NCBI RefSeq assembly: GCF_001717505.1
Contig: NZ_CP017037.1
Coordinates: 1,031,001 to 1,095,000, forward strand
Length of the DNA: 64,000 nt
Direction: 5' to 3'
Source of the DNA: Dialister pneumosintes
GTDB taxonomy: Bacteria; Bacillota; Negativicutes; Veillonellales; Dialisteraceae
A model generated the notes under the pieces. The model did no database searches and was not told where the DNA came from. It saw nothing but the letters and a program-made list of their open reading frames with translations. The position numbers and the translations under genes were made by a program. Shown here piece by piece: positions 22,852 through 23,978 of the stretch. The stretch's first letter is position 1. Each line of letters starts with the position of its first letter.

Positions 22852-23283
22852 TTATACAGCTGCTAAGATGACCCCAATAAAGCAAAGTATAATTCCAACT
22901 ATATTCCTAGTTCCGAGCCTATCTCCAAAATACAAAATACCAATAGTTGCCAGTATGGCAGAAGTCAATATATCTGCCACTAAAGCTCCTTGACTTACTT
23001 GCCATCCATGATGATACATGAGAATAAATCCTGCTTCCAAACCGGGAACAAATAGACCAAAAAATAAATATCTTTTAGAAGTCTGTTTTAAATCTTCCTT
23101 TAAAGTCGGTTTCTTAAATAAAATGACACAAATCATACAAACAAGAAAAGCAATAATATAAGCAAGACCTACTCCTAAAAATTGATTTCCCTGAGCAGGA
23201 ATACTCCTACTCGACAAGTGATATCCTACATTAGCTACTACAACTAATAATAGAGAGCCGTAATATATACCTTTATTTTTCAT
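22852..23283 (-). CDS. Half-size DMT/EamA-type transporter subunit B
   Basis: About 143 residues forming four predicted transmembrane helices. It is a clear paralogue of the preceding gene: both share the pattern VGYHL-SR-IP-GN-FLGVG-AYI, then FVPG-E-GFI-MYH-GW-VS-ALVAD. Half-size drug/metabolite transporters of the SMR/EamA type commonly work as dimers, and a tandem pair of paralogues suggests an antiparallel heterodimer. Start at the second of two ATGs, five bases after GGAGG. It is 10 bases downstream of its partner. The substrate is unknown; the leader RNA further upstream may sense it. Confidence 0.75.
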   Translation of the reverse strand: MKNKGIYYGSLLLVVVANVGYHLSSRSIPAQGNQFLGVGLAYIIAFLVCMICVILFKKPTLKEDLKQTSKRYLFFGLFVPGLEAGFILMYHHGWQVSQGALVADILTSAILATIGILYFGDRLGTRNIVGIILCFIGVILAAV

Positions 23284-23293
23284 CATGCCCTCC

Positions 23294-23716
23294 TCAAGAT
23301 TCTAAAAGAATAACACCGGAAAAACAACTCAGAACACCGAGTATATTAATCCAACTCAACTGTTCAGAAAACAGGAGTACACCGGCAAGAACTAAAATGC
23401 TTGTGACTAATACATCGGCAGTTAATGCTGCTTTACTGACTTTCCAACCACTATGATACATAGCAATGAACCCGATTTCTATACCGGGAACCATAATTCC
23501 AAGTAAAAAATAATGCCAAGAAATTTGTCCAAGTTCTGTATTCAAAGAACTTTCTTTAGTAAATAAAAACAATATCATACAAACAAAAAAACCAACAATA
23601 TATGCCATTCCTACACCGAAAAAATGATTTCCCGTTTCCGGTATTTTACGGCTTACCAAATGATATCCGATACCTGCAAAAAGTACTAATAGTAAAGAAA
23701 AAACTGACATAAACAT
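23294..23716 (-). CDS. Half-size DMT/EamA-type transporter subunit A
   Basis: About 140 residues with four predicted transmembrane helices, paralogous to the next gene. The open frame extends to 23755, but the ATG at 23716 is preferred: GGGGGA lies about 10 bases upstream, and the earlier frame overlaps a leader peptide read in another frame. It is the first structural gene of a unit made of strong promoter, structured leader RNA, leader peptide and two DMT genes. The function is presumably efflux or uptake of a small compound; the identity is not visible. Confidence 0.75.
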   Translation of the reverse strand: MFMSVFSLLLVLFAGIGYHLVSRKIPETGNHFFGVGMAYIVGFFVCMILFLFTKESSLNTELGQISWHYFLLGIMVPGIEIGFIAMYHSGWKVSKAALTADVLVTSILVLAGVLLFSEQLSWINILGVLSCFSGVILLES

Positions 23717-23733: not shown

Positions 23734-23817
23734 TTAAAAGAAAACAAGAGTACATAATTTATAAACATAAAATCTTCGTCGATACCTTTGTTTGCATAAA
23801 GACTTTTTAGTAAACAT
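23734..23817 (-). CDS. Arg/Lys/Tyr-rich leader peptide (27 aa)
   Basis: A short frame beginning ATG at 23817, preceded by AAAGGAG at a workable distance, encodes 27 residues, including KQRYRRRFYVYK and ending LVFF. Its stop lies 18 bases before the preferred start of the DMT gene. Its rare-looking Arg cluster and its position between a terminator hairpin and the structural genes fit a translated regulatory leader. It is too short to judge by composition, so it remains a candidate. Confidence 0.4.
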   Translation of the reverse strand: MFTKKSLCKQRYRRRFYVYKLCTLVFF

Positions 23818-23847
23818 CTTGTTTTCTTCTCCTTTCAGCTAATTAAC

Positions 23848-23943
23848 AAAAAAAGCACTCTACGTGCCTTTTCAACGATTAACGTATGTAGCCTACAGGT
23901 CACGTAAAATGCTCTTATTCTTATCCGGCGACAAAAATAAATT
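23848..23943 (-). ncRNA. Structured leader RNA with competing terminator and antiterminator (riboswitch-like)
   Basis: From a predicted start near 23943 the minus-strand transcript contains a segment at 23901-23914 (GAGCATTTTACGTG) complementary to 23853-23866 (CACGTAGAGTGCTT), apart from tolerated G-U pairs. The latter overlaps both arms of an intrinsic terminator (23848-23872, stem AAAAGGCAC/GTGCTTTTT, loop GTAGA, T run). The two structures exclude each other. Between them lies a possible small aptamer with stem ACGT..TGTA ggc TACA..ACGT. The class was not recognised; a guanidine-type switch is a guess from the transporter context only. Confidence 0.6.
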
Positions 23944-23949
23944 TACAAT

Positions 23950-23978
23950 ATAGTATCATGCACCCCATATACTGTCAA
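23950..23978 (-). promoter_or_regulatory. Strong promoter of the DMT leader-operon
   Basis: Minus-strand -35 TTGACA (23973-23978, perfect), 17-base spacer, -10 TACTAT (23950-23955). It lies between the upstream usp gene and the leader RNA and sets the RNA start near 23943. Confidence 0.85.

Follow-up and report, generated by a model that had tools for sequence, protein, structure and literature searches.

A guanidine-IV/Gd4v-group leader RNA as the probable riboswitch of a half-size DMT transporter pair in Dialister pneumosintes

The guanidine-IV riboswitch (i.e. the mepA motif; Lenkeit et al. 2020, PMC7736828) is built from two hairpins, the second of which is a transcription terminator, and a loop-loop pseudoknot forms between them on ligand binding (PMC7736828, PMC11611296, PMC12186494). 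Binding of guanidine leads to read-through (PMC7736828, PMC11611296), and the embedded terminator and ON behaviour are both established in published work (PMC7736828, PMC9788692, PMC11611296). The Gd4v motif is a guanidine-IV variant with an orphan ligand (Lenkeit et al. 2022, PMC9788692) and is found in Dialister before a transaminase gene. In the absence of ligand, transcription of Gd4v constructs, one of them from Dialister, yielded terminated product only, and guanidine at concentrations of up to 10 mM elicited no response from the Dialister succinatiphilus Gd4v RNA (PMC9788692). Two features separate the published types: guanidine-IV RNAs upstream of sugE always have G at position D1 and lack hairpin D2, whereas Gd4v RNAs upstream of the transaminase never have G at D1 and carry the D2 hairpin (PMC9788692). 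Another orphan-ligand RNA, ykkC subtype 2d (PMC7266159), is a guanidine-I variant that is also linked to EamA genes, but its architecture is unrelated to that described here and an Rfam scan detected no ykkC match in the window (i.e. the whole 64-kb stretch of D. pneumosintes DNA that was analysed).

The leader under study lies in a complete genome of 1.27 Mb. Genes on the minus strand are ordered as ThiF, a universal stress protein (24472-24002), the leader, two half-size EamA transporters and a universal stress protein. A near-consensus promoter described in the earlier note was confirmed at 23978-23950 (TTGACA-17 nt-TACTAT; 10 of 12 consensus matches), with an extended -10 TG. The same note had recognised two paralogous half-size DMT proteins downstream, and both proved to be EamA members. 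The first (about 140 aa; 23294-23716, minus strand) is 71% identical to its orthologue in Allisonella histaminiformans (locus L017), and the second (22852-23286, minus strand) shares 52% identity with the first in a local alignment. The position of the ribosome-binding site and the comparison with the A. histaminiformans orthologue place the predicted start codon of the first transporter at 23716 and not at 23755.

Two adjoining hairpins were identified in the leader RNA. P1 (23915-23940, minus strand) has 11 bp, formed by 23940-23930 with 23925-23915, and a loop, L1, of GCCG (23929-23926). P2 (23853-23914, minus strand) begins immediately after P1 and is formed by GAGCAUUUUACGUG (23914-23901) and CACGUAGAGUGCUU (23866-23853), giving 14 contiguous paired positions, and by a further pairing of CCU (23899-23897) with AGG (23869-23867) beyond a bulged A at 23900. 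The folding energy of P2 was -22.9 kcal/mol (z -4.4). Complementarity of equal length to the 3' arm arose in none of 2000 dinucleotide shuffles, and none of the 34 further sites in the window with a hairpin and a U-run had an equivalent 14-bp pairing. A tract of seven U (23848-23854, minus strand) stands 3' of P2. Within the P2 loop, L2, the GGC (23891-23893, minus strand) of GUAGGC (23896-23891) is proposed to form a pseudoknot with the GCC of L1 (23929-23927).

The earlier note had assigned the terminator to a short hairpin (23873-23849) and had treated the 14-bp helix as its antiterminator. Both structures do exist and are mutually exclusive, as the short hairpin competes for the 3' arm of P2, and its folding energy (-10.5 kcal/mol) is better than that of its own shuffles (z -5.2). 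The pairing of 23901-23914 with 23853-23866 stood, over 14 contiguous bp, but the roles are reversed: because the 14-bp helix abuts the U-tract, leaving five U unpaired beyond it, and is more stable by about 12 kcal/mol, it is the P2 terminator stem and not an antiterminator. The stem of the short hairpin, in contrast, uses up most of the U-tract, and in a stepwise folding series the long helix displaced the alternatives once the 3' arm of P2 had emerged. Every relative that was read has P2 as its 3' hairpin, with U after it, which is also the arrangement of the published family. A terminator at the short hairpin is barely credible.

The Rfam scan that the earlier note had put forward as a check against all guanidine classes gave no match for the window or the leader, including guanidine-I, -II and -III at the gathering score. 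This negative is uninformative since Rfam 15 matched none of 14 tested loci of guanidine-IV/Gd4v type. The Rfam 15 library omits or misses this group, so that routine annotation passes over guanidine-IV and Gd4v switches without notice. A nucleotide search with the leader in 61 genomes of the order returned no homologue; conservation of the element is confined to its structure and to short loop motifs. Covariance models were accordingly used. Model R2 was seeded with nine leaders from other genomes, three of which came from DMT loci, and matched the leader over its full length (model positions 1-77; 23863-23938, minus strand) with 38.3 bits (E=7.3e-10 in 77 kb). When the whole D. pneumosintes genome was searched, the leader (E=1.2e-8) was the sole match at E<=0.01. 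Several of the DMT-associated R2 seeds had been picked up through their DMT gene, which introduces circularity, and model R3 was built to remove it, seeded exclusively with leaders of transaminase, GNAT, MATE and SMR genes. R3 matched the leader with 33.9 bits (E=6.7e-7 in 148 kb) and recovered all 29 other DMT-associated leaders. The conserved loop nucleotides (L1 NCCGGAU; L2 GYAGGY ... AA) were recognised by these independent profiles. On these comparisons, membership of the leader RNA in the guanidine-IV/Gd4v group is statistically clear, although it scored below most members (38.3 bits versus up to 75.6 with R2). The first guess of the earlier note, a guanidine class, was thereby borne out at the level of the group. 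R2 matches occurred in 85 of 379 genomes of the class, and in 3 of 299 genomes of a wider phylum sample at a stricter cutoff. Weak R2 and R3 matches (E 0.04 and 0.06, respectively) at 20503-20439 (minus strand), with CACCGGAU and CAGGCAA, lie inside an ORF and are probably due to chance.

A syntenic gap in A. histaminiformans (L017:2772-2912) holds a promoter (TTGACA-18-TACACT) at a place equivalent to that of the D. pneumosintes leader and a long hairpin with UUUU. The best score of this leader with R2 was below zero, in a comparison that included one genus-mate genome, and the motif may have been lost, been replaced or be unrelated to the guanidine-IV/Gd4v RNA. A two-sequence model, R1, made from this leader and that of D. 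pneumosintes contained apparent compensatory pairs. It was dropped as evidence because the A. histaminiformans leader fails R2 and the plain alignment barely beats shuffles (18/500). Matches of R1 to three loci (L055-L057; E 0.08-0.5) were weak, had no common context and were attributed to chance.

Covariation was examined in an alignment of 71 R2 matches (A7). Standard pairs made up 95.6% of cells in P1, P2 and the pseudoknot, as compared to 68.4% after shuffling and 30-41% when the partner was slid, and both sides changed in 15 of 19 pairs. P1 was 97.6% paired and all eight pairs of inner P2 varied on both sides. Because the sequences of A7 were aligned on the model's P1 and P2, the alignment favours those helices; the pseudoknot is absent from the model and was nevertheless 99.0% paired, its first pair (12-90) being G-C in 37 sequences and A-U in 24. 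The long helix of the earlier note (i.e. P2) covaries, together with P1 and the loop-loop pseudoknot. A run of at least four U follows P2 in all 30 DMT-associated leaders. We consider the D. pneumosintes leader to be a guanidine-IV/Gd4v-group riboswitch through which expression of the half-size DMT pair is regulated at the level of transcription termination (probability about 0.88). A ligand-free element, whether a constitutive attenuator, the end-of-operon terminator of the usp gene or a small RNA, was weighed against this reading: the promoter, two hairpins and U-tract would also fit a small RNA of about 95 nt, and the stretch from the usp stop (24002) to the leader contains no other terminator. 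A plain terminator would, however, hardly show conserved loop nucleotides together with a pseudoknot that covaries across many genera, and the element stays 5' of transporter and detoxification genes. The plain attenuator or small RNA reading was dropped after the R2 match, and a ligand-free element of any of these kinds is regarded as very unlikely.

The genes downstream of the 71 matches encode half-size DMT proteins in 30 cases (D. pneumosintes included), pyridoxamine-oxidase-like proteins in eight, MATE transporters in seven and SMR, transaminase and GNAT proteins in five each; the other 11 contexts include several weak matches that are probably chance. The MATE, SMR, GNAT and transaminase contexts agree with those reported for guanidine-IV and Gd4v RNAs (PMC7736828, PMC9788692). 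A DMT/EamA link is not named in the main texts of the papers cited here on these RNAs, which list SugE, MATE, PnuC, GNAT and transaminase. In a reciprocal count over 97 genomes of the class, the RNA was found 30-144 nt upstream and on the same strand in 30 of 100 half-size DMT homologues, a figure that overstates the number of independent events as most of the genomes with a DMT-linked RNA are of one genus. The order RNA-GNAT-DMT occurred in four more genomes (G022, G034, G036 and G134), and a fifth case at 250-700 nt is the second DMT gene of D. pneumosintes itself. In three Dialister genomes (G007, G009 and G010; L065-L067, L129), the gene immediately before a half-size DMT pair encodes a class I/II aminotransferase, and in G010 the RNA sits between the aminotransferase and the pair. 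The RNA-GNAT-DMT and transaminase-DMT operons bridge the Gd4v contexts and the DMT context. The pairing of RNA and DMT gene recurs among related bacteria of the gut and mouth, which gives a hint of the export substrate of the transporters.

Assignment to a sub-type was based on the D1 and D2 features. D1 was equated with column 112 of A7 by inference from the mutant numbering in PMC7736828, and the equation fits because this column separates the MATE leaders from the transaminase and GNAT leaders: G was present in all seven of the former, none of which has a hairpin atop P2, and absent from all ten of the latter, every one of which has it. In the D. pneumosintes leader the position is occupied by A (23872, minus strand), which agrees with Gd4v (non-G) and not with guanidine-IV (G). 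A small hairpin, ACG-UUAAU-CGU (23875-23885, minus strand), is found atop P2 at the place of D2 but is weak, with 3 bp only and -0.8 kcal/mol. The leader further has in common with Gd4v the two hairpins, the loop-loop pseudoknot, the 3' hairpin as terminator and the loops GUC-NCCGGAU and GYAGGY, in addition to a presumed D1 other than G, and the transaminase relatives before DMT pairs add a likeness in context. It differs from Gd4v in the pseudoknot, which is ACC/GGU in all ten transaminase and GNAT leaders and GCC/GGC in D. pneumosintes. Dialister leaders upstream of transaminase paralogues read UGUCACCGGAU ... GCAGGU ... GAAAGG, and the corresponding letters in D. pneumosintes are UGUCGCCGGAU ... 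GUAGGC ... GAAAAGG. The gene context is also not the transaminase, GNAT or MATE gene typical of Gd4v but a half-size DMT pair, a context unnamed in the main text of PMC9788692. Taking the A at D1 and the weak D2 hairpin together, we read the RNA as probably nearer to Gd4v than to guanidine-IV despite its GCC/GGC pairing.

Under a guanidine-IV assignment, the ligand would be guanidine and the DMT pair would be a guanidinium exporter of a non-SMR family. The architecture and terminator logic are shared with guanidine-IV, and the GCC/GGC pseudoknot is common to guanidine-IV leaders before MATE (L104, L110 and L111) and SMR genes. Two leaders before orthologous half-size DMT genes (L118 and L123) show the plain loop of guanidine-IV, with G at D1 and no D2 hairpin, and one leader (L099) has a DMT-type loop before an SMR gene. 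However, the A at D1 and the D2-like hairpin, neither of which occurs in the MATE leaders, are Gd4v features (PMC9788692), the nearest loop relatives are mixed (identity of 0.68 to a Dialister transaminase leader and 0.67 to SMR and DMT leaders), the Gd4v RNA of D. succinatiphilus was unresponsive to guanidine at up to 10 mM, and the published guanidine-IV transporters are SugE, MATE and PnuC as opposed to half-size EamA. Guanidine-IV proper is on balance a doubtful, if serious, candidate. Most DMT-associated leaders come from one family (e.g. L079 and L083) and share with D. pneumosintes the GCC/GGC pairing, a D2 hairpin in most cases and a half-size EamA gene downstream; they differ in having G at D1 (all 28 that have a letter in this column) and, as far as read, a single DMT gene, in place of the A and the gene pair of D. 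pneumosintes. Many of them (L079, L082-L090, L092-L098, L100-L103, L106-L108, L113 and L120) have both G at D1 and a D2 hairpin, and so mix features of guanidine-IV with those of Gd4v. Three SMR leaders (L117, L119 and L141) possess the P2 hairpin and lack G at D1, contradicting the strict published border. The border between guanidine-IV and Gd4v thus appears blurred in this class, because the DMT group mixes G with the hairpin, L118 and L123 have the plain loop and the SMR leaders have the hairpin without G.

By homology with the published guanidine-IV and Gd4v RNAs, the leader would be an ON switch with a kissing-loop mechanism. Without ligand, the nascent RNA would fold P1 and then the complete P2 ending at the U-tract, and polymerase would stop near 23848. 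With ligand, the GCC of the P1 loop would pair with the GGC of the P2 loop and, together with conserved nucleotides of loop 2, form the binding site; the rigid kissing structure would keep the outer pairs of P2 open, allowing polymerase to read through into the transporter genes. The ligand-type transcription switch suggested before the DMT pair is supported through membership of the RNA group, but not in its antiterminator form, P2 being the terminator. Export of the ligand, or of a guanidino or amine compound related to it, would probably fall to a heterodimer of the two transporters. Should the ligand be other than guanidine, a guanidino or amine compound is proposed, because the enzyme associated with Gd4v acetylates agmatine and, less well, arginine (PMC9788692). 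A broader proposal is that half-size DMT (EamA) proteins, single or paired, constitute an unnamed exporter class under guanidine-IV-type RNAs, the leaders of which would be new sub-variants, one with G at D1 and a D2 hairpin (in one family) and one with A at D1 and GCC/GGC (in D. pneumosintes); we advance this tentatively, at a little short of even odds. The ligand of such sub-variants may be a guanidine derivative, and they could lead to the orphan ligand of Gd4v. The recurrent link to a small exporter offers a handle on that ligand, as the exporter probably carries either the ligand itself or a closely related compound.

The gap between the terminator and the first transporter differs from that of most relatives in holding about 100 extra bases and a 27-codon ORF (23734-23817, minus strand) with a good Shine-Dalgarno sequence. 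The basic peptide (MFTKKSLCKQRYRRRFYVYKLCTLVFF) contains several Arg/Lys-X-Arg/Lys triplets, a motif that occurs in drug-dependent ribosome stalling, and the ends of the ORF are joined by a stable 14-bp inverted repeat (AGAAGAAAACAAGA/UCUUGUUUUCUUUU; fold z -2.9). These features could suggest that control is mainly translational, through stalling on the ORF or through the inverted repeat. The ORF had no Pfam match and no convincing relatives in 61 genomes of the order, so a conserved leader peptide was ruled out and the ORF is private to the D. pneumosintes genome; in the relatives, moreover, the transporter ribosome-binding site directly follows the U-tract. Translational control as the main mechanism is highly improbable, and regulation via the ORF could add to the riboswitch but not replace it.

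A separate observation concerns the pyridoxamine-5'-phosphate-oxidase-like (Pyridox_ox_2) genes among the R2 contexts. Eight guanidine-IV-like RNAs with UGCCACCGGGUA ... GGUAGGUCUUGG (L122, L126, L130, L132, L135, L137, L139 and L145) precede such genes in two genera, both of which belong to one family of the class. Genes of this kind go unnamed in the main texts of the published descriptions cited here.
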